A stretch of DNA of 23,431 nt from Saccharofermentans sp. (GTDB lineage: Bacteria > Bacillota_A > Clostridia > Saccharofermentanales > Saccharofermentanaceae). The stretch covers positions 1-23,431 of the forward strand of contig JAILMZ010000018.1 of assembly GCA_024692105.1 (NCBI GenBank), read 5' to 3'. Both the position numbers and the translations under genes were made by a program. A model generated the notes under the pieces. It searched no databases, was not told the origin of the DNA, and worked only from the letters and a program-made list of their open reading frames with translations. Positions 361 through 20,388 of the stretch are shown here, one piece after another; within the stretch, counting starts at the first letter, position 1; the number at the start of each line of letters is the position of its first letter.

Positions 361-942
361 TTATCCCTTTTCACTATTATCTGTTGCTTTTTGATCAATG
401 CACTTTAAGAAAAAAACATTATTAGAAGAGCCTAAAAAAAACTCATTACCACTTTGTGTTTTGTAATTGCTTATATAGAAAGAATCAGTATATTCGACAC
501 CTGTTATATAATCATATGTATTTTCTAGATAATCTGCGTAGTCTTGACAGTACATCTCAACTTCTTTGGAATCGTTGCAATCGAAATACAACACCACCTT
601 ATAAACGGTATCGTCAATTCCATCACAGATCATCACTACACAGTCAACTGCTATGCCATTAATAATTAGAGTCTCTTGGCTTTTGTAAGTACAATCATAG
701 ACATCATCATCTGGTTCAACACTTTTCTGTTCAAGATCAGTGTCAAAGAAATCCTCAGCTAAATCCTCAGCTTCATATCGGGACTTACCCAACAGTCTTT
801 CCATCATTGGGCATACATCTAGGAGTTCATAGTAACTTGGCTCCATCCGACTACATGAACAAATGGTATTAGAAATTGCTAGGATTATTAGAATACATGA
901 TCCTAACCTCGTTATCCTATTAGTCCTCAGTTGGTTTGTCAT
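361..942 (-). CDS. Small secreted lipoprotein of unknown function, translationally coupled to the large mosaic protein
   Basis: 193 aa, no recognised family. The N-terminus has basic residues, then a hydrophobic stretch (residues 13-27) ending in I-C-S-C, which fits a lipobox with Cys30 as the lipidated residue; the mature protein would sit on the outer face of the membrane. The rest is acidic and unusually Cys-rich (seven more cysteines in DVCPM, YDCTY, VDCVVMICD, FDCND, MYCQD and LKCID contexts), with predicted mixed helix/strand. Its ATG overlaps the stop codon of the upstream gene as TAATG, with GGAGA just before it, so the two are almost certainly translated together. It shares the low G+C of that gene's 3' end. 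A partner, anchor or protective role for the large protein is inference from position only. Confidence 0.8.
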   Translation of the reverse strand: MTNQLRTNRITRLGSCILIILAISNTICSCSRMEPSYYELLDVCPMMERLLGKSRYEAEDLAEDFFDTDLEQKSVEPDDDVYDCTYKSQETLIINGIAVDCVVMICDGIDDTVYKVVLYFDCNDSKEVEMYCQDYADYLENTYDYITGVEYTDSFYISNYKTQSGNEFFLGSSNNVFFLKCIDQKATDNSEKG

Positions 943-3900
943 TATATCTCTCCGCTATTTAAATACTTATTCAACACAGGATCGTAATCATATGTATCTT
1001 TTAATGGATCAGCGTATTTTGCGTACATATATATATTATTTTCAAAATCCGACTCCGTAGTGGTAATATACCATTCATACAGGATATCGTCCTTTCCCGA
1101 GAACAAATCTGGTTCATAATAGAAACCTTGGCCATATCGTTCATATCGTACTTGCCCTTGGTATATAGCGATAGAATCATAGTATCTCATAATAATCGCT
1201 TCTCTAAAATCTTGTGGATCCAACAGATTAATCCTACTAAGCTCATCTTCTTCAGCTTCAAGAAACAAATCGTGAAGTATTATATCTCCACTCCAAGTCA
1301 AATCGGAACCTAATAAACAACAGAAACAGTCGAATGCATATATTTCCTTGATTGTGGAAAACTCACTTAAAAACGTCTCTGCTATATTCTTGTTAAGCCA
1401 ATTATTCGGATTCAACTGTGTAGCTGAATCACAAATCATTAGGTCAAGAGTATCAAATCTTCTGGATGTATTGATGTCTTCAATGAAATAGCAATAAAAC
1501 TCTTTTTCATTATCATTATTATTCTCTCTCAAACTTGTTTCTGCTTCGTCGGTTAAATCCGCAAAAAGATAATCTGATTCTCCTAAATCAAATCCTAAGC
1601 CCGTTGAGAAAGAATGACTAATTAAGACTACATCAGTTACATTATAATAATAGAAATCTGTAGAGCCACTGAACACTTCTATAGGCAGAATGAAAAACGG
1701 CAGCAAAGCATAGGCTTTATAATCTCCGATTTCACTCCATTTTTCGACAAAAGATATATATCCATTAAATAAGTACACTTCGCAGCGAATTCCGTTATTC
1801 AAATACTTGTTTTTTAATCCTTTAGATTCAGCCTTGCAGTTTTCGCCAGAACTACATGCGAGAATTACAACCAGGTTTTCATTCTCTTTAAACGGAAGAC
1901 CATCATCATAATCAGAATAATCATCTGCATCTCTGTCTATCGATTGAGGATCTGACCTATATGATGAGGCTTTAAGTTTACCAATTTGGCTTATAACATC
2001 TGCATTAATGCTTATCCCATCTAATTCAGCTAAGCAACAATAATCTGCCAGCGCAGCTGAGACATACACACCGGTTACACTATCAAATGTTCCTAAATCA
2101 AAACTTGAAAGTTCCTGATAATCAAGAATTCCATCTCCGTCAATATCAGAATCAGACTGATTATTCAGTTCGATTGTCTCTTCTCCAAATGTCAGTGCGG
2201 ATATATTATTGCCAGTTGCTTCACATTCACATATTACCCGAGTTTCAGTATATGTTTCAGGATCACGCCATCTCCATCCCCAGCTTCCAAATGTTAACGG
2301 GAATCCCTCCCATTGGGGGAAATCATTTGCATTGTAAGAACCCAACGCCCAATAAGTAAATGTACATTCTTCGTCTGTTATCCAATCAACAGTCGGATTG
2401 CTGATTCCGTGGAATTCAACACCACCGCCTATCCATCCGGCATCTGTAATGCTTGCAATAAGATTATTTTCTTCCGAAGATGTAATAACAGCCGGGTATC
2501 CGCCATACATATCACATACTGCAACTGCCTCGTCATATAGCATCGGAGTATCGGATGTTATAAGGAAGTACTCATGACCATTATAAGTTTTCTTTTCCCC
2601 AAAAGAATATGTCGAATCGGAATTCTGATTCGCTTCGTCAGATTCTCCTTTTAACAGCATCTTGGAAAGATTCTTTTCTCCTTGTTCTTCTTCCTCTATC
2701 CCAAGAAGCTCATACATCTGATCTGTGTCTACCAGACAATATGTGCCGATCATTGAATTGGTTGCATAGACTGTTCCTGTATCGTAGTCGTATTCAGTCT
2801 CGATAGGGATAAGGATGTTGTAGCCTTCCCAGTAGTAGAAGATGCAGTACTTATCTATTTCTGCTTCATATCCGTTCTTTAGCGTATACCTAACGGTTAC
2901 TGAATCGACCTTCATTGCATAGTCGTAGACTATTTCTGGAGATTTACCCAGAATAGTACTGTTATCTTCAATAGCATACTTATATCCCGTTTCCTCAACC
3001 TTGATATACTTATCTACACATCCTGCAGCTGTAATATCAAATGAGAATGTGAATGGCTGATCATCTGTGTTGAACTCGGAGATTTGTTCAGCGATGGTAT
3101 CGAAAGAATAATCCGAGGTATTCTCGTTATCCTTTACTCCTTCGGATGTATCTGTTGTCGGATCAAGACCCAGTGTCAGTTCATCTCCGTCTAAGATGTA
3201 ATCTCCATCAGAGTCTTCTTCGTAAGGATCTGTGTTATAAGTGAAGATCTCTGCGTAATCGTTTATTCCGTCATAATCGCTGTCTGTTGCATAAGGGCAG
3301 GTCCCGTAAGATTCTTCGTCACGGTTGATTATGCCGTCACCATCGAAGTCTTCGTCTCCATCCACTACACCATCAGAATCAGAATCGGCTATTGTTGGGA
3401 AATACATCATTCGAATTTCATAACCATCAGATACACCATCTCCGTCTGAATCTGGGTTATTCGGATCTGTACCGTACATTTCCTCTTCGTTTGTATAGAG
3501 TCCATCGCCGTCCAAATCCTGATCCGGAGTAAAGACAAATTCTGTAGGCGTTGGTTCAGGCGTATCTGTCGGAATGTCAGTTGGTGTTTCTGTAGGAGTC
3601 GGCTCTGCAGTAGGTGTAGGAGTATTGATTTCGATAAAACCTTTACTGTCGATCTCTGCCACATCGGGAATACCATTACCGTTCGAGTCTTCATTCAGGT
3701 TTATTGCCAGAGTGCTCGAATATACTGATGCATTTGTCACTTCAAATGGAACGGAAGAATCATGTTCGCCGCACTGAATGCCAATTTGCACTGATCCACC
3801 TGCAGGAATCTCGGTATAACCGTCTCCTGTTATTGTGTATGTACCATCCTCGTTAGAGGATAATGTAAATCCATACGCGTCCGTTATCGGTCTGTTAGCG

Positions 3901-4466
3901 GATAATGAAAGTGTCCAACTGCCGATTGCGTTTTCTGTGTTGTTTGTGAGGATCAGGACACCAGATGAACCTGTTGTCCAATCGGAATACTCTTGATATT
4001 CAACAGTCACTGCCCCTTCGGACATCATTGTTTGCTCGTTATTGAGCAGATAGAACGACGGCATTATTTCGATGTCGCTTCCGTCAGTGCTTGAAGCAGT
4101 AAATCCGATCGTTACTGATTCACCCGGATTGATATCTTTATTCCATCCGGCATTGGTTATCGTATACAAATCACCTTCATGCTCTACTATGCTGCAACAA
4201 TACGGATTTTCGATGTTATACGGGTAATCGAAAGAATAGTTCCAATTGTATATTGGAGTATCGCCTGTATTTGTAAACACGATCTCGATATTTGCATGGC
4301 CAGGCCATTCAGAGATCACATTTTCCTGAACTGTGTAGGATGCTTCGTTCAAGCTTCTGCATTTGAGACTGTCAGCAATCTCATCAGCAATCGATTCCAA
4401 CGGTAAACAAGAAAGGACTAATACAATTGAAATAAGCGAGCCGATCAATCTTGTTAGTCTCTTCAT
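942..4466 (-). CDS. Large secreted mosaic protein: CBM2-like x2, Ca-binding TSP3 repeats, C-type lectin-like domain, unknown C-terminal domain
   Basis: 1174 aa from the ATG at 4466, chosen because AAGGGGTG lies about 8 bases upstream; the longer frame begins with GTG three codons earlier and has no site. Order: signal peptide (about 1-28); two CBM2-like beta domains (about 45-128 and 153-235; first has NTG, NW, NAGWN, SVTIGF); an EF-hand-like loop DSNGNGIPDVAE (260-272); Thr/Pro linker (282-309); DxDxDG Ca repeats (315-440); a beta domain ending in IGTYCLVD (465-580); a C-type lectin-like domain (about 627-750, with WIGGG and closing VICECE); a second EF-hand loop DIDGDGILDYQE; and a C-terminal domain of about 310 aa. 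No transmembrane anchor, sortase motif or classical dockerin was seen. The modules suggest carbohydrate or surface binding outside the cell. The family is recognised by parts only; the function is unknown. Confidence 0.85.
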   Translation of the reverse strand: MKRLTRLIGSLISIVLVLSCLPLESIADEIADSLKCRSLNEASYTVQENVISEWPGHANIEIVFTNTGDTPIYNWNYSFDYPYNIENPYCCSIVEHEGDLYTITNAGWNKDINPGESVTIGFTASSTDGSDIEIMPSFYLLNNEQTMMSEGAVTVEYQEYSDWTTGSSGVLILTNNTENAIGSWTLSLSANRPITDAYGFTLSSNEDGTYTITGDGYTEIPAGGSVQIGIQCGEHDSSVPFEVTNASVYSSTLAINLNEDSNGNGIPDVAEIDSKGFIEINTPTPTAEPTPTETPTDIPTDTPEPTPTEFVFTPDQDLDGDGLYTNEEEMYGTDPNNPDSDGDGVSDGYEIRMMYFPTIADSDSDGVVDGDEDFDGDGIINRDEESYGTCPYATDSDYDGINDYAEIFTYNTDPYEEDSDGDYILDGDELTLGLDPTTDTSEGVKDNENTSDYSFDTIAEQISEFNTDDQPFTFSFDITAAGCVDKYIKVEETGYKYAIEDNSTILGKSPEIVYDYAMKVDSVTVRYTLKNGYEAEIDKYCIFYYWEGYNILIPIETEYDYDTGTVYATNSMIGTYCLVDTDQMYELLGIEEEEQGEKNLSKMLLKGESDEANQNSDSTYSFGEKKTYNGHEYFLITSDTPMLYDEAVAVCDMYGGYPAVITSSEENNLIASITDAGWIGGGVEFHGISNPTVDWITDEECTFTYWALGSYNANDFPQWEGFPLTFGSWGWRWRDPETYTETRVICECEATGNNISALTFGEETIELNNQSDSDIDGDGILDYQELSSFDLGTFDSVTGVYVSAALADYCCLAELDGISINADVISQIGKLKASSYRSDPQSIDRDADDYSDYDDGLPFKENENLVVILACSSGENCKAESKGLKNKYLNNGIRCEVYLFNGYISFVEKWSEIGDYKAYALLPFFILPIEVFSGSTDFYYYNVTDVVLISHSFSTGLGFDLGESDYLFADLTDEAETSLRENNNDNEKEFYCYFIEDINTSRRFDTLDLMICDSATQLNPNNWLNKNIAETFLSEFSTIKEIYAFDCFCCLLGSDLTWSGDIILHDLFLEAEEDELSRINLLDPQDFREAIIMRYYDSIAIYQGQVRYERYGQGFYYEPDLFSGKDDILYEWYITTTESDFENNIYMYAKYADPLKDTYDYDPVLNKYLNSGEI
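1146..1883 (-). other. C-terminal domain of the mosaic protein with a possible clan CD (caspase/CHAT-like) His/Cys pair
   Basis: Roughly residues 862-1107 of the protein. It contains LVVILACS, then a hydrophobic strand VVLISHS with His951 (codon 1614-1616), and 61 residues later a strand LDLMICDSA with Cys1012 (codon 1431-1433), followed by KEIYAFDCFCC. A strand ending in His and a later strand ending in Cys is the layout of clan CD peptidases (gingipain, CHAT). The expected HG is HS here, so this is an inference from pattern, not a recognised family. The segment is more AT-rich (about 30-37% G+C in sampled lines) than the N-terminal half (about 35-50%). Confidence 0.35.
3147..3524 (-). repeat. 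Thrombospondin type 3-like Ca-binding repeats (protein level)
   Basis: Tandem acidic loops DQDLDGDG, DSDGDGVSDG, DSDSDGVVDGDEDFDGDG, DSDYDGINDYAE and DSDGDYILDGDE, separated by short TDP/YGT spacers. These are diverged repeats, not exact DNA repeats. In the family such loops bind many calcium ions and form a rigid stalk, here between the carbohydrate-binding end and the lectin-like domain. Confidence 0.85.
3540..3623 (-). repeat. Thr/Pro-rich linker
   Basis: About 28 residues of PTPT, EPTPTE and PTDTPEPTP type repeats joining the CBM2-like region to the Ca-binding stalk. This is a typical flexible and often glycosylated linker of secreted clostridial proteins. Confidence 0.85.
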
Positions 4467-4520: not shown

Positions 4521-4548
4521 ATTATAGTATGTGCATTTTAATAATCAA
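4521..4548 (-). promoter_or_regulatory. Promoter of the mosaic protein / lipoprotein unit
   Basis: On the minus strand: -35 TTGATT (4543-4548), 16 bp spacer, perfect -10 TATAAT (4521-4526). The start codon at 4466 is about 50 bases past the expected transcription start. It lies between the nrdD terminator and the gene, so the unit is probably transcribed on its own. Confidence 0.7.
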
Positions 4549-4584: not shown

Positions 4585-4620
4585 AAAAAAGACCAGCCCC
4601 GTGATTTCTCACGGAGCTGG
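4585..4620 (-). terminator. Intrinsic terminator of nrdG-nrdD
   Basis: Twelve-base arms (4593-4604 and 4609-4620) with one mismatch and a TTTC-side loop. Read on the minus strand the stem is followed by TCTTTTTTATA. It lies 28 bases past the nrdD stop codon. Confidence 0.85.
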
Positions 4621-4648: not shown

Positions 4649-7048
4649 TTAAGCCTTGATGCCCTTGCAGTCGTTCATGTACTTTCTGATGGGTGCGATG
4701 TCAGTGAATACTTTCGCACCGTCAGAGTCGGGAATGATGAGAGAGGGTACGTTAACGATGCCGTACTTCTCTGCGATCTCCGGGTTGTCGTCCGCATATA
4801 CGAGGTCATAGTCGAAGCTCTGCTCGTCGAACATTGCCTTTACCTGCTTGCACTTGGGGCAGGTGTGAGTCGTTACGAGGATCGGCTTGTCTACAGAATC
4901 TGTGGGAAGAAGCTCGGGTGTCTCCTTCTCTGCGAACTCTCCGAGAGTAACGGTGGAAGTCTTGGGACGCATATGTGAGTTCTCGATGTCATATGTGCAT
5001 CTGTCCTTGAACTCCTGTGACTTACCGTCGTTCCAGTTCTTGATAGGTCTGTAGTAACCCGTGATCCTTGAGTATGTCTCTGTGGGGTTGCCGCATATGG
5101 GGCAAGCCTTTACTTCGCCTGCAAGATAGCCGTGAGCTGCACAGATGGAGTAGGTCGGGCTCATTGTGTAGTAAGGAAGCTTGTAGTTCTCAGCGATCTT
5201 TCTTACGAGCGAAGCTGCTGCCTTCCAGTCGGGGAGTCTCTCACCGAGGAATGCGTGGAATACCGTACCGGATGTATAGAGTGTCTGCAGATCGTCCTGA
5301 ACGTCCAATGCATCGAAGATGTCTGATGTGTATCCTACGGGCAGGTGTGAGCTGTTTGTGTAGTAGAACACGCCGGAAGCATCGTTTGCAGTGATGATGT
5401 TCGGGAACTTAGCCTTATCGTGCTTAGCAAGACGGAAGGATGTGGACTCTGCAGGTGTAGCCTCGAGGTTGTAGAGGTCGCCGTACTTCTCCTGGTAATC
5501 GGAGAGCTTGTTCCTCATGTGGTTCAATACCTTCTGTGCGAACTCCTGAGCCTCTTTGTTTGTGAGGTCCTTACGGAGCCACTTTGCGTTGAGACATGTC
5601 TCGTTCATGCCGACAAGACCGATCGTGGAGAAGTGGTTGTTGAATGTTCCGAGGTAATGTCTTGTGTAAGGATAGAGACCTTCTTCGAGGAGCTTTGTGA
5701 TGGTGTTCCTCTTGATCTTGAGTGATCTTGCGGATACATCCATCAGGTGGTCGAGTTCCTTGAAGAAATCTTCCTCATTGTTTGCGAGGTAACCGATCCT
5801 CGGGAGGTTGATGGTAACAACGCCGACAGAACCTGTTGACTCACCGGAACCGAAGAATCCGCCGGACTTCTTTCTGAGTTCACGGAGGTCGAGTCTTAAA
5901 CGGCAGCACATTGAACGTACATCGGAAGGCTCCATGTCGGAGTTGATGTAGTTGGAGAAGTAAGGGATGCCGTACTTAGCTGTCATCTCGAAGAGGAGCT
6001 TGTTGTTCTCTGTCTCGGACCAGTCAAAGTCTCTTGTGATGGAGTATGTCGGGATAGGATACTGGAAGCCTCTGCCGTTGGCATCGCCCTCGATCATGAT
6101 CTCGATGAAAGCTTTGTTGACCATGTCCATCTCGGCCTTACAATCCTTGTACTTGAAGTCCATCTCCTTGCCGCCGACGATGCAGTTCTGCTCAGCCAGG
6201 TCGTTAGGAACCGTCCAGTCAAGAGTGATGTTGGTAAAGGGAGACTGTGTGCCCCATCTTGAAGGTGTGTTAACGCCGTAGATGAAGGACTGGATGTCCT
6301 GCTTTACCTGCTTATAAGAAAGATTATCTACTTTAACGAAAGGTGCGAGGTAAGTATCAAAGGAGGAGAATGCCTGAGCGCCTGCCCACTCGTTCTGCAT
6401 GATGCCGAGGAAGTTGACCATCTGGTTGCAGAGTGTGGAAAGATGCTTTGCGGGAGCTGATGTGATCTTGCCGGGGATGCCGCCAAGGCCCTGCTGGATG
6501 AGCTGCTTGAGAGACCAGCCTGCGCAGTAACCTGTGAGCATGGACAGATCGTGGATGTGGATGTCAGCGTTCCTGTGCGCATCTGCGATCTCCTTGTCGT
6601 AGATCTCAGAGAGCCAGTAGTTAGCCGTGATGGCACCGGAGTTGGAGAGGATAAGTCCGCCTACGGAATATGTAACGGTGGAGTTCTCCTTTACACGCCA
6701 GTCCTCAACCTTAACGTAACTGTCAACGAGGTTCTTGTAGTTGAGAAGGGCAGAATTCATGTTGCGGATCTTCTCACGCTGATTTCTGTAGAGAATGTAT
6801 GCCTTTGCAACATCCTCATAACCCATTCTCTGCAGCGTGACTTCTACGCTGTCCTGGATCGACTCGACGTCGACCTTTCCGTCAACGGCCTTGGACTCGC
6901 AGTCGGATACGGCGTTGAGCGCAAGCATGTCGATGATCTGCTTGTTGTACTCTCTCTTCTGTGCGACGAATGCCTTCTCGATCGCGCCGGAGATCTTGCT
7001 CAAGTCGAACTCAACTTCTTTTCCGTCTCTCTTGATGATCTTGTACAT
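4649..7048 (-). CDS. nrdD: Anaerobic (class III) ribonucleoside-triphosphate reductase with fused glutaredoxin-like domain
   Basis: 799 aa; makes deoxyribonucleotides from ribonucleotides without oxygen, using a glycyl radical. Residues 1-95 are an ATP-cone (allosteric control). The catalytic barrel shows DIHIHDL (about 162-168), WGTQSPFTN (about 265-273), active-site Cys381/382 in MCCRLRLDLR and TGSVGVVTINLPRIGY (405-420). The zinc site reads C636-x2-H639-x9-C649-x2-C652, so one ligand may be His. The glycyl radical is Gly664 in RITGYYRP. Residues 717-799 are an additional thioredoxin-fold domain with CPKC (730-733) and cis-Pro motif VPS, resembling NrdH/glutaredoxin. This suggests that reducing power comes through thiols in cis rather than formate, as described for thioredoxin-dependent NrdD types; that part is inference. 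It lies 12 bases downstream of its activase gene. Confidence 0.97.
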   Translation of the reverse strand: MYKIIKRDGKEVEFDLSKISGAIEKAFVAQKREYNKQIIDMLALNAVSDCESKAVDGKVDVESIQDSVEVTLQRMGYEDVAKAYILYRNQREKIRNMNSALLNYKNLVDSYVKVEDWRVKENSTVTYSVGGLILSNSGAITANYWLSEIYDKEIADAHRNADIHIHDLSMLTGYCAGWSLKQLIQQGLGGIPGKITSAPAKHLSTLCNQMVNFLGIMQNEWAGAQAFSSFDTYLAPFVKVDNLSYKQVKQDIQSFIYGVNTPSRWGTQSPFTNITLDWTVPNDLAEQNCIVGGKEMDFKYKDCKAEMDMVNKAFIEIMIEGDANGRGFQYPIPTYSITRDFDWSETENNKLLFEMTAKYGIPYFSNYINSDMEPSDVRSMCCRLRLDLRELRKKSGGFFGSGESTGSVGVVTINLPRIGYLANNEEDFFKELDHLMDVSARSLKIKRNTITKLLEEGLYPYTRHYLGTFNNHFSTIGLVGMNETCLNAKWLRKDLTNKEAQEFAQKVLNHMRNKLSDYQEKYGDLYNLEATPAESTSFRLAKHDKAKFPNIITANDASGVFYYTNSSHLPVGYTSDIFDALDVQDDLQTLYTSGTVFHAFLGERLPDWKAAASLVRKIAENYKLPYYTMSPTYSICAAHGYLAGEVKACPICGNPTETYSRITGYYRPIKNWNDGKSQEFKDRCTYDIENSHMRPKTSTVTLGEFAEKETPELLPTDSVDKPILVTTHTCPKCKQVKAMFDEQSFDYDLVYADDNPEIAEKYGIVNVPSLIIPDSDGAKVFTDIAPIRKYMNDCKGIKA

Positions 7049-7060
7049 GTTCCTTCTCCT

Positions 7061-7759
7061 TTATTCTTCCCCGCGGATCTTTGCCTGCGGTATTATTTCC
7101 TTTGCATTTGCGAGCGCTGCGGAAATCTCTTCTTTTGTCAGCTCCTTCATTCCGTCTCCTGCGACAAGGTCTCCCGAATCAACGAAGTTCTGGAGGAAGT
7201 ATCTGGGTGAACCTTCCACCAGCTTTGCCAGCTCGCCGAAATCCTCCGGTCTGTGGAGCGGAGATACGACCGTTGTCCTGAACTCGTATTCCACGCCGCT
7301 TTCCTTTATGATCCTGATACTCTCAACAATCTTCGAAGTATCAAAACCGGGAACCCCTACTGTCTCGGCATATCTGTCCAAGGTATTCTTCAGATCCATC
7401 GCGACGAAATCGACATTGCCGGAATCAAGTATCTCTTTGACCTTATCCGGGAAGCTCCCGTTGGTATCAAGCTTGACCTTGTATCCCATCGATTTGATCT
7501 TCGCGATGAACTCTTTGAGGTCGGGCTGCAGTGTGGGCTCGCCGCCCGTTATGCAGACACCGTCAAGGATGCCCTGTCTCTTCTTAAGGAAGGAGAAGAA
7601 CTCTTCTTCTGAAAGCAGATTCTCTTCTTCGATCCTGTTTACGAGCGATGCGTTCTGGCAGAACGGGCATCTCATGTTGCATCCAACCGTGAACACCGTG
7701 CAGGCTACGAGTCCGGGGTAGTCGAGAAGTGTGAGTTTCTGTAAACCGCCGAGTCTCAT
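7061..7759 (-). CDS. nrdG: Anaerobic ribonucleotide reductase activating protein (radical SAM)
   Basis: 232 aa from the ATG at 7759. This start has AAAGGAG about 7 bases upstream and gives the usual family N-terminus (MRLGGLQKLTLLDYPG). A longer frame from 7834 has no ribosome binding site and its start overlaps an operator. The radical SAM cluster motif is C27-x3-C31-x2-C34 (GCNMRCPFC), and TGGEPTLQ is the SAM-binding GGE motif. It uses SAM to form the glycyl radical on NrdD, encoded 12 bases downstream in the same operon. The sequence is closer to the NrdG2 / PFL-activase-like branch than to short E. coli NrdG. Confidence 0.95.
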   Translation of the reverse strand: MRLGGLQKLTLLDYPGLVACTVFTVGCNMRCPFCQNASLVNRIEEENLLSEEEFFSFLKKRQGILDGVCITGGEPTLQPDLKEFIAKIKSMGYKVKLDTNGSFPDKVKEILDSGNVDFVAMDLKNTLDRYAETVGVPGFDTSKIVESIRIIKESGVEYEFRTTVVSPLHRPEDFGELAKLVEGSPRYFLQNFVDSGDLVAGDGMKELTKEEISAALANAKEIIPQAKIRGEE

Positions 7760-7827
7760 GCCTGTCTCCTTTGCGCGAAAATTCTTGTGCAGGTACGCGC
7801 CCTCTCTTGCGAAGTGCCCCTTAAGAT

Positions 7828-7843
7828 TACCCATATCTTGTGG
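7828..7843. promoter_or_regulatory. NrdR box 2 (downstream, weaker)
   Basis: Matches about 10 of the 16 positions of the NrdR consensus (acaCwAtATaTwGtgt), with a perfect TTGTG right half. Its centre is 32 bp from the stronger box at 7860-7875, the usual spacing for NrdR pairs (about three helix turns). Confidence 0.6.
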
Positions 7844-7859
7844 TCAAGTCAATACCAAA

Positions 7860-7875
7860 CCACTATATATTGTGG
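7860..7875. promoter_or_regulatory. NrdR box 1 (overlaps the -10 of the nrdG-nrdD promoter)
   Basis: CCACTATATATTGTGG is a near-perfect palindrome matching the NrdR operator consensus. NrdR is the ATP/dATP-sensing repressor of ribonucleotide reductase genes. The box covers the predicted -10 element, so binding would block transcription. Confidence 0.85.
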
Positions 7876-7893
7876 GTTGTAATAATATTGTAA
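7864..7893 (-). promoter_or_regulatory. Promoter of nrdG-nrdD
   Basis: On the minus strand: -35 TTACAA (7888-7893), 18 bp spacer, -10 TATATA (7864-7869). The -10 lies inside NrdR box 1. The start at 7759 leaves a leader of about 95 bases that contains NrdR box 2. Confidence 0.55.
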
Positions 7894-7912
7894 TAGTTCA
7901 AGAAAAAGTGAG

Positions 7913-7938
7913 AAAAAGCCCGCCGTTGAGCGGACTTT
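7913..7938 (-). terminator. Intrinsic terminator of the nucleosidase / SPL-like / SDR operon
   Basis: A 7-9 bp stem (AGTCCGC pairing with GCGGGCT, one G-U) with a six-base loop. On the minus strand it is followed by TTTTTCTCACTTTTTC. It lies 28 bases past the dehydrogenase stop codon and separates this operon from the nrdG promoter. Confidence 0.7.
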
Positions 7939-7965
7939 CCGATTTTTCGCCTGTCACGGGCAGTT

Positions 7966-8652
7966 TTATTTTTTACTGATCCGGTTATATTGGGGCCTGA
8001 CTTCGACCTCCGTCACGGCAGTGCCTTCCCTCATCACGAGCACGTCCTTTACACAATCCGCGACATCTTCAGGAAGCAGGTAGCAGCCGTTATCTTCCGA
8101 CGGCTCGAAATCGGCATTCCTGTACAGCTTTGTCCCCGCCGTAAGATCGGGACATACCGTGACGACCCTTACGCCGTGTTTCCTGACCTCTTCAAAAAGG
8201 CTCCTGCCGTAACTTCTCAGTCCCGCCTTGAACGCACCGTAGCACGCACCGTGCGTGTTGATCCTGGTGGATGTGACGGAAGCTATGTTGATGACCGTTC
8301 CTTTCGAGTCCTTAAGCTTGGGAAGAAGTGCAGCCGTAAGGATCATCGGAGCCTCCAGGTCTGTCCTGCACATCTCCTTGATCTGGTCGGGTGTCATGAA
8401 CTCTGCCAGACCGTAATAAGCACAGCCTGCGGAATTAACCAGCAGATCGCATTCTTTTATTCCCGATACTTTGGACAGGAGAATGTCCGTGTCTCTTATA
8501 TCCATTGATATGCGCTCTTCGAAGAAAGATACATCCCCCTCAAACACCCTGCCGATGCCGTATACTTTATATCCGTTCCCTGCAAGCATCTTCGATATCG
8601 CGTAACCTATTCCGGATGATGCTCCGGTAACTATCGCAGTCTTCAGTTCCAT
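7966..8652 (-). CDS. Short-chain dehydrogenase/reductase (SDR)
   Basis: 228 aa from the ATG at 8652; the longer frame starts at a GTG deep inside the upstream gene. It is a classical cytoplasmic SDR: nucleotide-binding TGASSGIG (residues 9-16), NSAG (73-76), catalytic Ser125, Tyr138 and Lys142 in a YGAFK motif with the correct 13-residue Ser-Tyr spacing. Such enzymes oxidise or reduce alcohol/ketone groups with NAD(P). The substrate cannot be told from sequence; the cofactor loop after strand 2 (GIGRVFEGD) gives no clear NAD/NADP preference. It overlaps the SPL-like gene by 10 bases, so it is the last gene of a coupled operon. Confidence 0.9.
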   Translation of the reverse strand: MELKTAIVTGASSGIGYAISKMLAGNGYKVYGIGRVFEGDVSFFEERISMDIRDTDILLSKVSGIKECDLLVNSAGCAYYGLAEFMTPDQIKEMCRTDLEAPMILTAALLPKLKDSKGTVINIASVTSTRINTHGACYGAFKAGLRSYGRSLFEEVRKHGVRVVTVCPDLTAGTKLYRNADFEPSEDNGCYLLPEDVADCVKDVLVMREGTAVTEVEVRPQYNRISKK

Positions 8653-9617
8653 TTGAATATCTTCTCCCTTCCTATGTGTATCTCGAGCAGGCCGCACATG
8701 AACTCCTGCATCTCCCTGTCGTCTTCTTCCGTATATTGTGCCACGCCGTTCTTTATCACATAAGGGTACCAGGCTATCTCATTTTCCGGCAGGCGCTTAC
8801 GCATCGAGTTCAGGTAATCTCCCGATATCCTGAATGTGCCGACGCTCACGTCGGTCACAAGGTTAAGGTCTATCTTCTCCGTCACTTCTTCCAGAAACCC
8901 CGCATACACTTCGCGCCAGCCGGGAACTTTGATCATGGGGTCAAAACAGAGCCTTACCCTGCACCCGGAATCGATCGCTTTGGCAGCGGACCTGATCCTG
9001 TCTGCCGTGCGCGGCGCGCCGGTCTCATATCTTGATGCCACTTCATCCGGCGATATCGTAGACGCATAGATGACATTGGGTATGTTCCGAAGCGATGGAG
9101 GCGCAGCTTTGGTGCGGAGTTCAACAAGCAGGTCCTCTTTTTCTTCTGCCAGGTCGCACCATCTGTCCGCAAGACCTGTCAGAGAGTTAAGCGCGATGAG
9201 GTCGGTATCGTAAGATGCGCACACGTACATCGGACCCTGCTCAAGATATCCTTCAACGTCCTTCCTGTAGTCTTCGAAATTCACGAACACGACTATATAA
9301 GAGGAAGGATACATGCCTTTGAGATAGCAGTACTGACAGTCGAAGGGACAATTCATGATCGAGCTGGAATAATAGAAATTCCTCTGTCCGAAAGACTGGC
9401 AGACGGGAGCGCCCTTAAACACCCGTGCACCGCTCCTCACCGCGAGAATGAGAGCGGGGTTCTTCCTCTGGAAATTCATGTCCTGCCTCGGCCTGTCAAA
9501 GATATCCTTGTAGTGTTCGATATCGATGATCCTGCTCCCTTGAGATCCTTCGAGGATCTTCTTAGTCAGCGGGTATCCGTATGCCGATCGCTCAACGTAG
9601 ATATGCGTATATCTCAT
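8643..9617 (-). CDS. Spore photoproduct lyase (SPL)-like radical SAM protein
   Basis: 324 aa from the ATG at 9617 (AAAGGAG about 8 bases upstream; the codon before it is TTG). Radical SAM cluster C90-x3-C94-x2-C97 in NCPFDCQYCYLKG, typical of SplB-like proteins. Cys133 in YVCASYDTD sits where SplB has its H-atom-donor cysteine before TSD, and STISPDEVASRYETGAP matches the SPL SxNP-x-E-RYExGxP region. SplB repairs the thymine dimer formed in spore DNA by UV. Many relatives in Clostridia have no proven role, so a different substrate is possible. The start overlaps the end of the nucleosidase-like gene by 26 bases and its end overlaps the SDR gene by 10. Confidence 0.85.
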   Translation of the reverse strand: MRYTHIYVERSAYGYPLTKKILEGSQGSRIIDIEHYKDIFDRPRQDMNFQRKNPALILAVRSGARVFKGAPVCQSFGQRNFYYSSSIMNCPFDCQYCYLKGMYPSSYIVVFVNFEDYRKDVEGYLEQGPMYVCASYDTDLIALNSLTGLADRWCDLAEEKEDLLVELRTKAAPPSLRNIPNVIYASTISPDEVASRYETGAPRTADRIRSAAKAIDSGCRVRLCFDPMIKVPGWREVYAGFLEEVTEKIDLNLVTDVSVGTFRISGDYLNSMRKRLPENEIAWYPYVIKNGVAQYTEEDDREMQEFMCGLLEIHIGREKIFKWN

Positions 9618-10317
9618 CAAGGATCTCCTTTCCCGCCTTCTTGTCCCTGACCGGAATGCGGCCCGAACCGCGCATGTCTTGCAGCAGCTCTTCCAGCTCG
9701 TTCCTGCGTCCTGTTATAACGCAGTAGTGCCAAAGGGATGCAAGTTCGTTTCGCATGTATTGCGAGAGTCTTAATTCATCTGCAAGTCCTTCCGGATACG
9801 ATTCGTATTCCGGTATTGCCGGATCGTCAGCAAGCTTTCCTGCCGCTTCTTCTATCTCAGGCAGATGCTTTCTGATAAGAGCGGTTATATCGTTTGCGGA
9901 AGGGATCTTGCTGCCGTCATCCGAGACCGCCTTGAGCACGCAGCTGTTCGAAGGCGGTATCACCTTAAGTGCCCATTCGCAGATGCGGGCAGCTTCCATA
10001 TCGTAGATGTATCCGGCTTCCGTTCCGGTCACGACCGTACTTGCGGTTACGAGTTTCATTTCGGGAAGATCTGCAGCAGAACTCATGTCGGGGTAGAAAC
10101 GTTTGCCCGTGTCAGCGTTTTCGATGCTGCTTGCAAGATACAGGCCGCCGGCCTTCCCCGCGCAGCAGCCTATGTTGAGGACGCGGTCCGTCTTTTGCAA
10201 AGATATCTGCCCAAGCTTATCCTTGCACCTTTCCCCGACACCCGTAACGATGATCTGTCCCGGCAGGCCGGTAAGCGCGGCCGCTTCACATTTGAGCGCT
10301 GTCAGGACATATAGCAT
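9592..10317 (-). CDS. MTA/SAH-nucleosidase-like (nucleoside phosphorylase superfamily) protein
   Basis: 241 aa from the ATG at 10317, with AAGGAG nine bases upstream; a longer TTG-started frame lacks a site. Superfamily active-site features are present: ALKCEAAAL with a Glu near residue 11, YDMEAAR (Met107-Glu108, ribose binding) and KAVSDDG with the catalytic Asp (133/134). It has an extra helical C-terminal tail of about 70 aa (from about 170) absent from standard MTA/SAH nucleosidase. These enzymes split the base from 5'-methylthioadenosine, S-adenosylhomocysteine or 5'-deoxyadenosine. Being first in an operon with a radical SAM enzyme fits removal of 5'-deoxyadenosine, which is inference. 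HpnG-like nucleosidases are an alternative. Confidence 0.75.
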   Translation of the reverse strand: MLYVLTALKCEAAALTGLPGQIIVTGVGERCKDKLGQISLQKTDRVLNIGCCAGKAGGLYLASSIENADTGKRFYPDMSSAADLPEMKLVTASTVVTGTEAGYIYDMEAARICEWALKVIPPSNSCVLKAVSDDGSKIPSANDITALIRKHLPEIEEAAGKLADDPAIPEYESYPEGLADELRLSQYMRNELASLWHYCVITGRRNELEELLQDMRGSGRIPVRDKKAGKEILDEIYAYLR

Positions 10318-10334
10318 CGGGGGAACTCCTTTTT

Positions 10335-10363
10335 TAGACAATTATATTATAAAGTGTTAATAT
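10335..10363 (+). promoter_or_regulatory. Promoter of trpS
   Basis: -35 TAGACA (10335-10340), 17 bp spacer, -10 TAATAT (10358-10363). The ATG follows about 20 bases after the expected transcription start, with GGGAGG in between. No T-box leader fits in this space. The divergent nucleosidase promoter must share the same 72 bp, where TATAAT occurs on the minus strand. Confidence 0.55.
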
Positions 10364-10389
10364 TAGTCGTTGTTTATAGGGAGGACTAC

Positions 10390-11379
10390 ATGGACAGATT
10401 ACTTACGGGACTTCAGCCCAGCGGCGCACTTACGATCGGAAACTATGCAGGCGGCATCAGCCAGATAGTTAATTACCAGAAGGACTATGAGACATTCCTC
10501 TTCGTCCCCGACATGCATGCCATCACCGTACCTCAGGATCCTGAGGCGCTCCACAGGAACATTATCAATGCCATCGCAATGTACATCGCATGCGGTGTCG
10601 ATCCTGATCTCGAGAACATGCACATCTACATCCAGTCCGAGAATCTGTACCACGCAAACCTGTCCTGGATCTTCGAGTGCCACACTCCTCACGGAGACCT
10701 CACTCGTATGCACCAGTTCAAGGCAAAGTCCGCACTCCACGAGACATTCACGGAAGGTCTCGTTACATACCCCGACCTTATGGCGGCAGACATCCTTCTC
10801 TACGACGCGAAATACGTTCCCACGGGAATCGACCAGAAGCAGCACGTAGAGCTCGCAAGGAATCTCGCCATCCGTTTCAACAACAGATACGGCGAACTGT
10901 TCCGCGTACCCGAGCCGATGATCCCTACCATCGGTGCGAAGATCAGAGACCTGCAAAATCCCGAGCAGAAGATGAGCAAGTCCACGACTAACCCGAAGGC
11001 TTCCGTCTTCCTTTCAGATACAGAGAAGCAGATCCGCAAGAAGATCATGTCAGCAGTAACTGACTCTGACGGCATCATCAAGTTCGACGAAGAGAATAAG
11101 CCCGGCGTATCCAATCTCCTTACCATCTATTCCGTATTCAGCGGATGCACCATTGAAGATGCTGTTGCCAAGTTCGAAGGCGGCGGTTACGGCGACCTCA
11201 AGAAGGGCGTTGCAGACGCAGTCGTCGAGAAGCTCATGCCCGTACAGGAAGAGTACAACAAGGTCATCGAGAGCGGCAGGATCGACGAGATCCTCGACGA
11301 AGGAAGAGAGTTCTCGAACAAGATCGCAGCAGAAAAATACGAGCAGGTCAGAAAGGCTGTCGGTTTCGGCAGGATCTGA
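10390..11379 (+). CDS. trpS: Tryptophanyl-tRNA synthetase
   Basis: 329 aa from the ATG at 10390 (GGGAGG six bases upstream; an upstream in-frame GTG has no site). Class I synthetase joining tryptophan to its tRNA in the cytoplasm. It opens with LLTGLQPSGALTIGN, where TIGN (15-18) is the HIGH signature, and has KMSKS (194-198) in EQKMSKSTTNPKA. The length is usual for bacterial TrpS. It is the only plus-strand gene and is convergent with GH10, with only seven bases between the stop codons. Confidence 0.98.
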   Translation: MDRLLTGLQPSGALTIGNYAGGISQIVNYQKDYETFLFVPDMHAITVPQDPEALHRNIINAIAMYIACGVDPDLENMHIYIQSENLYHANLSWIFECHTPHGDLTRMHQFKAKSALHETFTEGLVTYPDLMAADILLYDAKYVPTGIDQKQHVELARNLAIRFNNRYGELFRVPEPMIPTIGAKIRDLQNPEQKMSKSTTNPKASVFLSDTEKQIRKKIMSAVTDSDGIIKFDEENKPGVSNLLTIYSVFSGCTIEDAVAKFEGGGYGDLKKGVADAVVEKLMPVQEEYNKVIESGRIDEILDEGREFSNKIAAEKYEQVRKAVGFGRI

Positions 11380-11386
11380 TCCCCTG

Positions 11387-12601
11387 TTACAATTCGAATT
11401 CGTCCATACCGGCGCCGATCTTTGTATCGGCGTCTGTTGTTTTTACTTTGTATGTTCCCTTGAATCCCGTTATCTCCGCGATGCCGTCTTCGTTTGTAAC
11501 CACTTCGGCTTCCGTGTGCCACCTGTTAAAGATGAGATCGTGCAGGAGATGGTACGAAGGTTTCTCGCTGTTATCAAGTCTAAGAAATCCGCTCGGTGCG
11601 TTAAGCCATGCGCCGTCCGTAAAATCCCATGTGGTGATCGCCTGTACATTCGGATCTTCAAACAGCAGGGTGTACATCTCTTCCATCTGCTCCGCCTGAC
11701 GTTTCTCGCCTGCAGGTGTGGAAGGCCACTCGTCCGTCGTGACCACAAAATCGTTAAGATCATCAAGTTCCGCCGGAACAAGATAGTCACCTGACGTGAG
11801 TGTGTTTTCCGTAAAGTGAATCGGAAGACCGAACCTGCCAAACCTTTCCAGCACATCCAGGATCTTCTCTTTGCCCCAGTATCCCTGGTGCTGGTGCGAC
11901 TGGATGCCGATGGCGGTTATGGGCACGCCCGCATCGAGGCAACGCTCTATGAGCTCTTCGTACTTCGGGGACGTGTTGAAATCGTTGAGCAGTAACTCCG
12001 CTTCGGGATTGGCAGATCTCGCCGCATCGAAAACGGTCTTTACCAGAGGGACCTGACCGTACTCGTTGCACACTCTCGTTACTGCATTATCGTATTTGTC
12101 GAAGACGGGCATGATGACGACTTCGTTGATGACATCCCACATGTCTATGATGCCTTTGAAGCCTCCGACCTCTCTGCCTATGCGTCCCGTGAGTTTATCA
12201 AGTATCGTCTCATTGTCGTACTTCATGAGCCAGTCGGCGCATACCGTATGCCAGACGAGCGGATGTCCCTTTACCGTGACGCCGCGCTCTGTAAGATACT
12301 TTGCTGCCTGCATTCTGCTCTCAGTCTGAGGGCAGCCTTCTTCGGGTTCAAATGTTCCGAGATAGAACGGCAGCGTGGCATAGTTGAACACCTTTACCCA
12401 CTTGTCCATCCTGTCCTTGTAGAAGGCCTTCTTCTCTTCGTCTTCAGCCTGGAAATAATCGACAAAATCAAAACCGCCGCAGCCGAACAGGAATTTATGG
12501 CTTGTCTGTTCGATCTTAAGGCACCTGCCCGCAAGAGGTCTTTCTTCGTCATCGGTAAATCTTATTAACTTAGTGGTCTTTCTGTGATCAAGATCTGCCA
12601 T
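11387..12601 (-). CDS. Glycoside hydrolase family 10 endo-beta-1,4-xylanase, probably cytoplasmic
   Basis: 404 aa; ATG with GCAGGAGG seven bases upstream. GH10 motifs are complete: GHPLVWH (112-118), acid/base Glu160 in WDVINE, SHQHQGYW (235-242), nucleophile Glu265 in IHFTEN, and TTWDFTDGAWL (323-333) near the barrel end. A short C-terminal appendix (about 365-404, EDGIAEITGFKGTYKV) is the small beta extension found in several GH10 enzymes. There is no signal peptide or lipobox, so it probably cleaves imported xylo-oligosaccharides. It is last in an operon with an alpha/beta hydrolase (30 bases upstream) and a lipoprotein. Confidence 0.93.
   Translation of the reverse strand: MADLDHRKTTKLIRFTDDEERPLAGRCLKIEQTSHKFLFGCGGFDFVDYFQAEDEEKKAFYKDRMDKWVKVFNYATLPFYLGTFEPEEGCPQTESRMQAAKYLTERGVTVKGHPLVWHTVCADWLMKYDNETILDKLTGRIGREVGGFKGIIDMWDVINEVVIMPVFDKYDNAVTRVCNEYGQVPLVKTVFDAARSANPEAELLLNDFNTSPKYEELIERCLDAGVPITAIGIQSHQHQGYWGKEKILDVLERFGRFGLPIHFTENTLTSGDYLVPAELDDLNDFVVTTDEWPSTPAGEKRQAEQMEEMYTLLFEDPNVQAITTWDFTDGAWLNAPSGFLRLDNSEKPSYHLLHDLIFNRWHTEAEVVTNEDGIAEITGFKGTYKVKTTDADTKIGAGMDEFEL
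11413..11444 (+). terminator. Likely trpS terminator lying inside the 3' end of the GH10 gene
   Basis: CGCCGAT / ATCGGCG arms (11413-11419 and 11426-11432) with a CTTTGT loop, then TCTGTTGTTTTT on the plus strand. The hairpin is 34 bases past the trpS stop codon and is embedded in codons of the opposite gene. Confidence 0.5.
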
Positions 12602-12631
12602 GAATTGCCTCCTGCGCTCAGGCCGTAATAA

Positions 12632-13456
12632 TCAAAAACCTTTCTCTGCCAGTTCCTTTGCAAGCAAGGAATAGAAATCCGTAATGTCGCTTATCCTGAA
12701 CATCGACTCCGTTGCAACATTCTTTGACAGAGGCATATGCTTGAGATCTATCTCATCCCAATGGGACACACCCCTCCTGGTCGTACTTCTCACTATACCA
12801 CGGAAGTTGCCCCACTGTGCGGAGGCAGGCGTTACCAGGCCGTCACTCTCGCCTTCGATGCGTTTGATGAAATTCCTGGGTATCGACAGCAGATAGTTCC
12901 CCTTTGCATGGTCCGCCACGAAAGCAAAGCTCTGGCAGTAAACGCCTTTTGGCAGGGGATTTTCTTCATTGAATCTCGCGGCAGCTTCAGTCGTAAAATC
13001 GGTCATTATGTGATAGAAGTCCGGCTGGCTGTCTCCGTATATCCTCATCCATATGTTGGATGTAAAACTGACCAGGCGTACGAACCAGCGTCTCATCTGA
13101 AAGACGCGGTCCAAGGCCTTCGAGCCGTGGTGCGGTGTTCCTATGGTCGTGATGGATGCAACGCAGTCCTCGAGATGGTATTTCGAGACACAGCGCCTTA
13201 TGTCGACGCCGCCTTTGGAATGTGCTATGACATTGATCTTGGAAGCACCGCTGTCCTCTAGGATCTCCTTGATCCTGCCCGCGAGGAAATCAGCGTTGTG
13301 TTCGATAACGGCATTGCAGTCCTGACCGCTGAAATAGATCCTGCAGCCGGACTGTTCCAATGCCTTGGAGATCCTGCCCCAATATTTAAGCCATCTGTCA
13401 TCTCTCCTGCTCATGCCGTGAACGAGCATGACAGGATATTTGAGTTGCCTTGTCAC
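12632..13456 (-). CDS. Alpha/beta hydrolase of the triacylglycerol lipase type
   Basis: 274 aa. The N-terminal PVMLVHGM is the oxyanion strand; the nucleophile is Ser80 in AHSKGG (the first glycine of GxSxG is Ala); GTPHHGS (106-112) is typical of bacterial lipases. Asp205 in ESDGLVTP and His232 or His240 would complete the triad. There is no signal peptide, so it is probably intracellular. The start is GTG, seven bases after the stop of the upstream lipoprotein gene, with only a weak ribosome site, so translation probably depends on coupling. The natural substrate (lipid, acetylated sugar or other ester) cannot be told; the xylanase next door makes an esterase on plant-derived esters conceivable. 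Confidence 0.82.
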   Translation of the reverse strand: MTRQLKYPVMLVHGMSRRDDRWLKYWGRISKALEQSGCRIYFSGQDCNAVIEHNADFLAGRIKEILEDSGASKINVIAHSKGGVDIRRCVSKYHLEDCVASITTIGTPHHGSKALDRVFQMRRWFVRLVSFTSNIWMRIYGDSQPDFYHIMTDFTTEAAARFNEENPLPKGVYCQSFAFVADHAKGNYLLSIPRNFIKRIEGESDGLVTPASAQWGNFRGIVRSTTRRGVSHWDEIDLKHMPLSKNVATESMFRISDITDFYSLLAKELAEKGF

Positions 13457-13463
13457 GTTGTGA

Positions 13464-14561
13464 TCAGCCTGCGGCTACAGGCTCGAAAACGAGTTCGATA
13501 TTTCCGGAACCGAAAAGGTCTTCGTCTACTTCAACGTCGAAAATGATGTTTCCGTTCTCTATCGTTCCGACGGAGCCGGTATCGTAGCCGTCAACATTAA
13601 ATGTTATCGTATCGCCTTCGACAGTGTAGGTACCGTATCCCTCTGCAGACTCAAGCGAAGTGTCATCAGCTGCGATTGCTTCTTCGATCTGGTCACCGAG
13701 ATCGGCCTTCATTGCATCGTAACTGTCATAGCCGAGCAGCGAAGCATAGTCTTCCAGTTCGTCGACTGAAGTAGCTCCGAATGCAGTCATGAACATGATA
13801 TCCAGATTGTCGTTGATGTAAACCTTAAGGGATTCTACCAGGGAATCGGTATCAAGAGCGATATAGCATGTGCCGTCGTCATAGATCGAGAGTGTCCAGG
13901 TTGATATAACACTGCCTTCCATCTCCATGTCAACACCGAGAGAACCTGTAAGGCTGTCTTCGAGGATGCTCGTCATGTCATATACAGCGACATAATCACC
14001 TGTAATGTCGCAGACGGGAAGCGAGTATGATAAGTAATCAAAGATCGCGCCGAAATCATCGCTCTTAAGATTGGTTACTATCCACTCATCGTCGTCCTTC
14101 TCGAACTTGATGGTAAACTCGTACTCCTTTGTATCGAGGTCTTCAATGGCATCCACGATATCGTCTATGTCTTCATAATCTCCGTCATCCAGGTCCTCGA
14201 AGTCTGCCATGGAAAAAGTAATGTCGCATGTAGCCTTCTTGCCGTCGATCTTAACGGAACCGGAGTCGATCTCATATGTCATGGTATCTTTCATGGCATC
14301 GGCATATTTCTGGAAATCATCCGTGCGGAGATCCATGTCCAGGATGAGTTCCAGTGCCTCGGCAACCTCGCCGTCATCCTCTTCGTTTGAACACTTGAGG
14401 ATCTTGCCGGCATCCGCAGATACGACTGCATCACCGAAATTCTCGGCAGCCTCGATAACTGCCTTCTGGCCAAAGATCATATCACAGGAAGCAAGTGATG
14501 TGAGCATTGCTGCCGCTACGGTAACTGCTCCTGCCTTTTTTGCAATACTTGAGATTCTCAT
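13464..14561 (-). CDS. Acidic lipoprotein of unknown function
   Basis: 365 aa from the ATG at 14561 (GGAGGGG seven bases upstream; a longer GTG start would overlap that site). The signal peptide ends in the lipobox L-A-S-C with Cys26 lipidated, so it is anchored on the outer face of the membrane. The mature part is strongly acidic (EDDGE, DLDDGDYEDIDD). It contains a cystatin-like-looking half (about 30-170, ending in KFEKDDDEWIVTN) and a second half with repeated beta-strand patterns (YGTYTVEGDTITF, GTIENGNIIFDVEV) found in clostridial lipoproteins. No family is recognised with confidence. It is first of three genes with the hydrolase and GH10. Confidence 0.8.
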   Translation of the reverse strand: MRISSIAKKAGAVTVAAAMLTSLASCDMIFGQKAVIEAAENFGDAVVSADAGKILKCSNEEDDGEVAEALELILDMDLRTDDFQKYADAMKDTMTYEIDSGSVKIDGKKATCDITFSMADFEDLDDGDYEDIDDIVDAIEDLDTKEYEFTIKFEKDDDEWIVTNLKSDDFGAIFDYLSYSLPVCDITGDYVAVYDMTSILEDSLTGSLGVDMEMEGSVISTWTLSIYDDGTCYIALDTDSLVESLKVYINDNLDIMFMTAFGATSVDELEDYASLLGYDSYDAMKADLGDQIEEAIAADDTSLESAEGYGTYTVEGDTITFNVDGYDTGSVGTIENGNIIFDVEVDEDLFGSGNIELVFEPVAAG

Positions 14562-14590
14562 ATATTTCCCCTCCACTATTGAATATTGTA

Positions 14591-14619
14591 ATTATACTAA
14601 TACGTCACATGTTATTCCA
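14591..14619 (-). promoter_or_regulatory. Candidate promoter of the lipoprotein / hydrolase / GH10 operon
   Basis: On the minus strand: -35 TGGAAT (14614-14619), 17 bp spacer, perfect -10 TATAAT (14591-14596). The start codon is about 30 bases downstream. The -35 is poor. No convincing terminator for corA lies in the same gap, so read-through from corA is possible. Confidence 0.5.
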
Positions 14620-14628
14620 CACGCGTAC

Positions 14629-16245: not shown

Positions 16246-16253
16246 ATCGGTTC

Positions 16254-17423: not shown

Positions 17424-17424
17424 G

Positions 17425-18279: not shown

Positions 18280-18289
18280 GTTGTCTTCC

Positions 18290-18907: not shown

Positions 18908-18941
18908 ATATTCACCTCTTAACAGTTACTTTGACCATATT

Positions 18942-18970
18942 ATTATACAAGGAAATAATAAAAGTGCCGC
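18942..18970 (-). promoter_or_regulatory. Candidate promoter of the fchA-folD-rRNA methyltransferase-alkD-corA operon
   Basis: On the minus strand: perfect -10 TATAAT (18942-18947) with a weak -35 GCGGCA 17 bp upstream (18965-18970) that overlaps the stem of the preceding terminator. The start codon is about 35 bases downstream. Confidence 0.4.
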
Positions 18971-18992
18971 CTCAAAAATCGGGGCAGCACTT
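18962..18992 (-). terminator. Intrinsic terminator of the SH3-NlpC/P60 gene
   Basis: Ten-base arms (18962-18971 and 18983-18992; one G-U) with an 11-base loop. On the minus strand it is followed by TTATTATTT. It lies 28 bases past the stop codon. Confidence 0.8.
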
Positions 18993-19019
18993 GTTCAAAA
19001 CTTAGGAAAAATGTATCCG

Positions 19020-20270: not shown

Positions 20271-20301
20271 AGTGCTCTTTCTCCTCAAATGTTTTGCGTT
20301 A

Positions 20302-20330
20302 ATTATACATTGCGATAACATGCCTTTGTA
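20302..20330 (-). promoter_or_regulatory. Promoter of the SH3-NlpC/P60 gene
   Basis: On the minus strand: -35 TACAAA (20325-20330), 17 bp spacer, perfect -10 TATAAT (20302-20307). Transcription should start near 20295, which places the ATG at 20321 upstream of the mRNA and supports the TTG start at 20270. Confidence 0.6.
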
Positions 20331-20358
20331 CGATTTTTAAGGCAAAAATGCATAAATA

Positions 20359-20388
20359 AACGCCGGAAGAAAATACTCTCCCGGCGTT
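20359..20388 (-). terminator. Intrinsic terminator of rpoC
   Basis: AACGCCGG / CCGGCGTT arms extended by five more pairs (two of them G-U) to a TATT tetraloop. On the minus strand it is followed by TATTTATG and further T residues. It lies about 50 bases past the rpoC stop codon. Confidence 0.8.

Follow-up and report, generated by a model that had tools for sequence, protein, structure and literature searches.

The two-gene unit at the left end of the window (the whole analysed stretch, 23,431 nucleotides of Saccharofermentans sp. contig JAILMZ010000018.1) is probably one of the loci that make up a polymorphic toxin-immunity system specific to its lineage, in which a caspase-like C-terminal tip would harm bacteria that do not carry the matching exofacial partner. 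The unit and the features given for it below lie on the minus strand, and its neighbours are mostly core genes. The larger gene (942..4466, with its ATG at 4466) encodes a secreted, polymorphic-toxin-like protein of 1174 amino acids (aa), delimited by its open reading frame (ORF) and its homologues; the smaller (361..942) encodes a 193-aa exported, putatively lipid-anchored partner, which its ORF and the pattern across the family mark as a predicted immunity protein. Both genes, and the coupling proposed in an earlier reading of this DNA (the sequence-only reading), were confirmed; stop and start overlap in TAATG (940..944) with base 942 in common. The same reading had suggested that an effector or adhesin is exported and that its membrane-anchored partner or protective protein stays on the producing cell, and the co-variation of tip and partner described below supports this arrangement, with protection as its probable purpose. 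Rather than a simple adhesin, the pair appears to be a bacterial weapon of a new variety.

A small, N-terminally anchored protein was encoded by the next gene, on the same strand and within 60 bp, at 38 of 51 family loci, with genes called by a simple ORF rule throughout; the same combination of adjacency and anchoring held for 12 of 349 other genes of these loci, which served as controls. Adjacent anchored partners accompanied 29 of 35 testable caspase-type tips, all six testable papain-type tips, both DUF4474 tips and three of five other tips (L064 and L094 had no anchored neighbour). The partners of two nuclease-looking tips (L051, L053) were without an anchor, and this class pattern fits a partner that sits where its tip acts, if the nuclease assignment, which was made from a motif, holds.

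Partner sequences were very diverse across the family, and their similarity followed the tip. All 28 partner pairs that were similar at E<1e-4 belonged to the same tip class, compared with 49% of all pairs. When the front was removed, the correlation between partner and tip similarity over 42 loci was 0.122, a weak value but beyond chance (attained in 2 of 2000 permutations); when the tip was removed, the correlation between partner and front similarity was -0.002 (attained in 1050 of 2000). The partner thus tracks the C-terminal domain across changing N-terminal modules, the pattern that the sequence-only reading had named as the sign of a matched pair. If the two genes formed an accessory pair with no matched function, held together by operon inheritance alone, the diversity of the partners and the homologues that lack one would be accounted for; adjacency and anchoring far above the control genes, and partner similarity that tracks the tip independently of the front, would not, and we disfavour this explanation as very improbable. 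Copies without a complete tip were kept outside the tip clusters (L088, whose tip is broken, and the contig-end copies L047, L061, L072, L091 and L092), the partner of L062 was cut and hence dropped, six loci had their automatic tip boundaries adjusted by hand, and for L052, L066, L067 and L068 the tip was taken as the final 300 residues. One candidate, L067, was not accepted as a toxin with its immunity gene, because the product of the neighbouring gene is similar to a stretch of the large protein itself and the C-terminus of that large protein matches carboxypeptidase-regulatory-like domains. It was kept in the counts of adjacency (51 loci) and co-variation (42 loci).

The protein database contained ten homologues of the large protein besides itself, nine of them with CBM2. 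Several pairs were more than 90% identical in the front and less than 20% in the tip (for P0004 and P0011, 92% and 14%), and the tip of P0002 was 96% identical to that of the window protein with a lectin domain merely 49% identical. Together these comparisons show exchange of the tip at a fixed junction. A scan of genome contigs that depended on two short conserved peptides gave no more than two loci, one in the metagenome-assembled genome of Saccharofermentans sp. RUI428 (G001) and the other in Ruminococcus albus AR67. When whole genomes of the G001 family were searched with a profile, 39 of 115 had matches at E<=1e-15, partly to the front alone. The tips of the protein family were caspase-like, papain-like, DUF4474, nuclease-looking (L051, L053) or of other kinds, and two peptidase folds accounted for 54 of 63. 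Such a predominance would make sense if the toxins act outside the cytoplasm, because a secreted peptidase reaches surface proteins without crossing a membrane. L066 and L068 end in DUF4474 and have lipoprotein-like, mutually similar partners, which suggests that DUF4474 may serve as a toxin tip. The C-termini of L052, L064, L067, L089 and L094 matched no Pfam enzyme family and may include further tips; those of L064 and L089 are of one shared type. A search of phages gave no match. Among plasmids 26 records matched, and the ten listed, from haloarchaea, cover residues 313-580 only (the calcium repeats and some of the domain that follows); these matches therefore give no evidence that such elements carry the pair.

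Tips and partners also occurred away from the usual front. The tip profile matched in 32 of 188 genomes of the order, all inside the family, in 4 of 396 genomes of the R. albus family and in 5 of 398 genomes of a phylum sample, G001 included. Behind an orphan tip in L114 lies a partner that matches the L048 partner of another genome without a difference over 257 residues; L115 is another orphan tip-partner pair, L109 an orphan tip with three partner-like genes, and L112 two tandem tips alongside genes whose products have hydrophobic N-termini. L078 holds a spare partner gene 87% identical to the partner of a different toxin. The same tip was found behind eight RHS-repeat stretches in L123 (E 1.3e-52), on an Rhs end in L124 (RHS E 0.059, with an RHS ORF alongside) and in L147 behind an Rhs-type front that was recognised by eye, the letters ahead of the tip being masked; each of the three adjoins a small anchored gene. 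Rhs proteins are recognised polymorphic toxins, so their sharing of the tip ties it to polymorphic toxins independently of the window's family. Three genomes of a single lineage (L144-L146) carry a third secreted front, which is broken in two of them; one of the three was listed with an adjacent anchored partner, and all three have a homologous gene about 3 kb off.

The variable tip of the window protein comprises residues 856-1174 (945..1901), as delimited by profiles and predicted structure. Its predicted catalytic residues, His951 (1614..1616) and Cys1012 (1431..1433), were each invariant in 46 of 46 tips. In the tip model, which has an alpha/beta core, H112 follows a strand at 102-110 and C173 a strand at 167-171. 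In clan CD peptidases the His and the Cys of the dyad follow successive strands in an alpha/beta core, and the tip is predicted to be a caspase-like (clan CD) cysteine peptidase from its modelled fold, assigned by VIA-align, and the conserved dyad. No clan CD Pfam family (C14, C25, C80, C11, CHAT) was matched up to E 1 in the window protein, L044 or L085; Pfam, NCBIfam and PADLOC gave no match for the tip or the lipoprotein, and the tip profile had two matches among PDB sequences, both at chance level. We rejected an antiphage role on account of the export signal and the lack of a PADLOC hit. The putative papain/C39-like tips of other members have Gln, Cys and His invariant across seven aligned tips, with no Pfam match to such a family in the two tips scanned and no PDB match by sequence.

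The best structural match of the tip model was Tce1 of the Pseudomonas aeruginosa H3 type VI secretion system (H3-T6SS; PDB 9qpe), which differs in that it is delivered by this system inside Hcp rings and has no marked effect on Escherichia coli (PMC13323088). Its companion Tce2 impairs yeast growth, likewise with no marked E. coli effect (PMC13323088). Together with the carbohydrate-binding modules of the front, this parallel would suit a weapon or digestive protease directed at eukaryotes such as ciliates or fungi, the partner merely sparing the producer's own surface. The diversity and tip specificity of the partners, and the spare partner genes, indicate exchange between bacteria instead, and an immunity gene, whose absence served as an argument against antibacterial action (PMC13323088), is usually present here; we consider a eukaryotic target improbable.

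Several observations weigh against a toxin-immunity system. Tce1 was described as lacking an immunity gene and as probably having no antibacterial action (PMC13323088), and no PDB entry matched the tip model in Foldseek with E <0.001 (best 8.4e-3). The window lipoprotein, compared by profile and hhalign with nine partner groups, showed no relation beyond the signal-peptide region, and no toxin of the window kind lay near the four examined of its nine distant relatives. Six of 35 caspase-tip loci lacked an adjacent anchored partner (L002, L050, L056, L060, L069, L084), R. albus and G001 among them; in L056 and L084 an anchored ORF lay about 330-360 bp distant, and L002 was counted as partnerless with an 89-aa ORF flagged as anchored regarded as spurious. 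At a looser threshold, with signal peptides kept, one partner pair crossed tip classes (L087-L089, E 7e-4), and one profile of caspase-class partners reached a papain-class partner (E 2e-4). The front is not uniform: P0008 and L002 are without CBM2 module 1, and of eight further members scanned seven had CBM2 and two the lectin domain. The nuclease assignment of the L051 and L053 tips is our presumption from a motif, and Pfam found nothing significant in these tips. Related loci are not independent samples; L070 and L071, for example, are near-copies. The condition under which the sequence-only reading would have failed, a lipoprotein found widely alone or homologues that usually lack a partner, was thus partly touched, by the four relatives away from toxins and by the homologues with no adjacent partner.

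Three further genomes (L110, L111, L116) also count against that system; each encodes a single secreted caspase-like domain with no adjacent partner, and the domain therefore exists as a plain secreted peptidase too. In L110 (5082-5879) and L111 (5196-5987) these are single domains of 263-265 aa behind the same row of genes, which we take for his genes, and they are possibly a housekeeping relative or ancestor of the tips. Such proteins, the CBM2 and lectin modules of the front and the self-processing known for caspase-like domains (PMC3482391) would all agree with a fibre- or cell-binding adhesin or processing protease, its partner a tether or chaperone and its peptidase engaged in self-processing or in degrading dietary or host protein, with no antagonism. 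A tether or self-cutter needs no tips diverged to below 20% identity behind nearly identical fronts, and it leaves the spare partner genes, the orphan tip-partner cassettes and the same tip on Rhs-type proteins unexplained; the peptidase is, moreover, the last domain, with nothing behind it to release. We consider the adhesin or protease explanation unlikely, though the least so of the alternatives, and prefer a toxin with its immunity protein.

The partner of the window toxin carries a putative lipobox (I-C-S-C) with Cys30 encoded at 853..855. The lipoprotein claimed by the sequence-only reading is supported to that extent; in P0014, which belongs to a set of three near-identical homologues, the residue at Cys30 is Ser, and lipid anchoring is therefore likely, not certain. 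These three sequences are the only copies otherwise known in the protein database. Distant relatives (23-30% identity) occurred in nine genomes of the family, and the five that lie beyond the four examined above are weak matches (E 0.006-0.009). Arrays of varied small lipoprotein-like genes occur in L134 and L135, one gene being 29-30% identical to the window lipoprotein. An AlphaFold model from four near-identical rows was unusable (predicted local distance difference test, pLDDT, 32). Position, coupling and the family pattern suggest an immunity role for this protein.

The plan proposed for the large protein, binding modules followed by stalk, lectin and C-terminal domain, agrees with Pfam and the alignments, the tip being without a Pfam match. 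A signal peptide spans residues 1-27 approximately (4386..4466; cleavage site placed by eye from sequence and alignment) and is probably not of the lipoprotein type, since its Cys is substituted in P0007 and P0010. CBM2 (PF00553) matched in two stretches (E 8e-22), the better one giving module 1 (residues 48-129, 4080..4325); CBM2-like module 2 would correspond to the other, at an estimated position of about residues 151-262 (3681..4016). Profile positions 165-259, in the region of module 2, match many other R. albus ORFs as well. A Pro-Thr linker and TSP3-like calcium-binding repeats form the stalk (residues 281-445, 3132..3626), the repeats scoring E 0.037 and so short of the cut-off. They are followed by a conserved domain of unknown function of about 150 aa (about residues 446-600, 2667..3131), which was also matched in two other R. 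albus ORFs, and by a C-type lectin domain (residues 641-747, 2226..2546). The lectin match is short of the Pfam cut-off in the window protein (E 0.002) and stronger in L051 (2.5e-15) and L089 (1.3e-12); its identity was 48-49% to eight homologues and 71% to P0007. A calcium-loop-like motif of the DxDxDxxxDxxD type (residues 844-855, 1902..1937) lies at the junction with the variable tip.

That the pair is accessory, and perhaps of horizontal origin as had been inferred, is supported by an empty site in a close relative and by the AT-rich tips. The window nrdD is 97% identical to that of G074, a member of the G001 family, to which the window therefore very likely belongs. The gene beyond the pair, of which a 46-aa start lies within the window, is taken by us for a polyphosphate kinase 2-like gene and is here called pap. 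Between nrdD and pap there are about 150 bp in G074 and about 215 bp in G083; in the window the pair lies between them (4.5 kb). A pap gene was found behind nrdD in 11 of 20 relatives fetched, several of the 11 holding other genes in between, and tblastn with the window toxin and lipoprotein found nothing in the stretches from any of the 20 (0.8 to 7 kb). Across L148-L166 the interval behind nrdD, where pap was found, ranges from about 150 bp to more than 3 kb and differs in gene content, which makes the site a small hot spot for variation. In 53 of 53 loci the tip exceeded the flanks in AT content, and in 52 of 53 it exceeded its own front.

Composition bore out the low G+C that had been noted for the pair: 38.9% (34.9% in the lipoprotein gene and 39.5% in the large gene) compared with 50.9% for positions 4649-23431, and below all 147 equally long windows across that remainder (lowest 48.5%). 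Codon usage deviated too, with distances to the pooled other genes of 0.31 (large) and 0.41 (small) versus 0.10-0.24 for 16 other genes, which were themselves part of the reference pool. A promoter of the pair's own had also been claimed. A sigma-70-like match, TTGATT-16-TATAAT (4521..4548, consensus only), does sit between a terminator-like hairpin of the upstream nrdD (4593..4620, from a sequence scan) and the ATG of the large gene, but such matches were no commoner in the region than in shuffles (13 versus a mean of 15.9). The core genes include, by Pfam, an anaerobic ribonucleotide reductase, a class I tRNA synthetase and a tetrahydrofolate dehydrogenase among others, and rpoC was recognised by eye at the right end. 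The window further encodes a protein resembling spore photoproduct lyase (8643-9620, PF20903), a GH10 family protein with no obvious signal peptide by eye and perhaps intracellular (11387-12601), and an NlpC/P60 peptidase with SH3 domains, possibly a cell-wall hydrolase (19020-20321).

Polymorphic toxins with C-terminal Tox-Caspase domains were described by Zhang et al. in 2012 (PMC3482391), who already predicted both toxins with caspase-like C-termini and toxins with carbohydrate-binding modules. Those systems share with the present one Sec-type export, a constant N-terminus, a variable C-terminal toxin that may be a caspase-like or papain-like peptidase, immunity genes, standalone cassettes and immunity arrays. 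They differ in the front, here CBM2, TSP3-like and C-type lectin; the words 'cellulose', 'TSP3' and 'thrombospondin' were absent from the portion of the text searched. That survey names Imm65 as its sole lipoprotein immunity protein, whereas the partners here are mostly anchored. MafB/MafA of Neisseria also has a lineage-restricted constant N-terminal domain after a signal peptide and a polymorphic C-terminus (PMC3482391), but the front domain is another one and MafA is an invariant upstream lipoprotein, in contrast to the variable downstream anchored gene here. TelC-TipC of Streptococcus intermedius and TslA-TilA of Staphylococcus aureus are Gram-positive toxins that act outside the cytoplasm, with membrane- or lipid-anchored exofacial immunity proteins and paralogous immunity genes nearby (PMC6193138, PMC10730906); they use type VII secretion and are a lipid II phosphatase and a phospholipase, not cysteine peptidases. 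TipC and TilA are precedents for exofacial anchored immunity in Gram-positive bacteria. No description of a cellulose-binding polymorphic toxin system of the window kind was found in the open-access literature searched; as far as these searches show, the cellulose-binding/TSP3/lectin front with its lineage-wide set of tips, the tip family, hitherto undescribed, and the frequency with which partners are anchored are new.

We infer from the signal peptide that the large protein would be exported by Sec. Its CBM2 modules, calcium-stabilised stalk and C-type lectin would probably hold the toxin on cellulose and/or cell-surface sugars, and the exchangeable caspase-like tip would harm bacteria without the partner, most likely through cleavage of proteins on the envelope's outer face. 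The coupled small protein would be exported and stay attached to the outside of the producer's membrane; there it may block the tip of self and kin, as co-variation, position and predicted anchoring suggest. Comparison of loci supports movement of tip and partner as a cassette between fronts. More tentatively, and at somewhat below even chances, these loci may represent a cellulose-directed polymorphic toxin system of Clostridia, in which cellulose-binding modules and a lectin would carry the toxins to plant fibre and rival cells, and the tips, mainly surface-acting cysteine peptidases of two folds, would kill or inhibit rivals from the outside without entering the cytoplasm and be countered by rapidly diversifying exofacial immunity proteins.

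R. albus lives on plant fibre. If the toxin-immunity interpretation is correct, and if these bacteria live on plant fibre, competition for fibre would make use of toxins placed on the shared food source, and surface-acting peptidases would rank as one of the main classes of toxin used between bacteria by Gram-positives. The many natural tip-partner pairs would allow direct tests of the way in which surface proteases kill and are blocked by an anchored protein.
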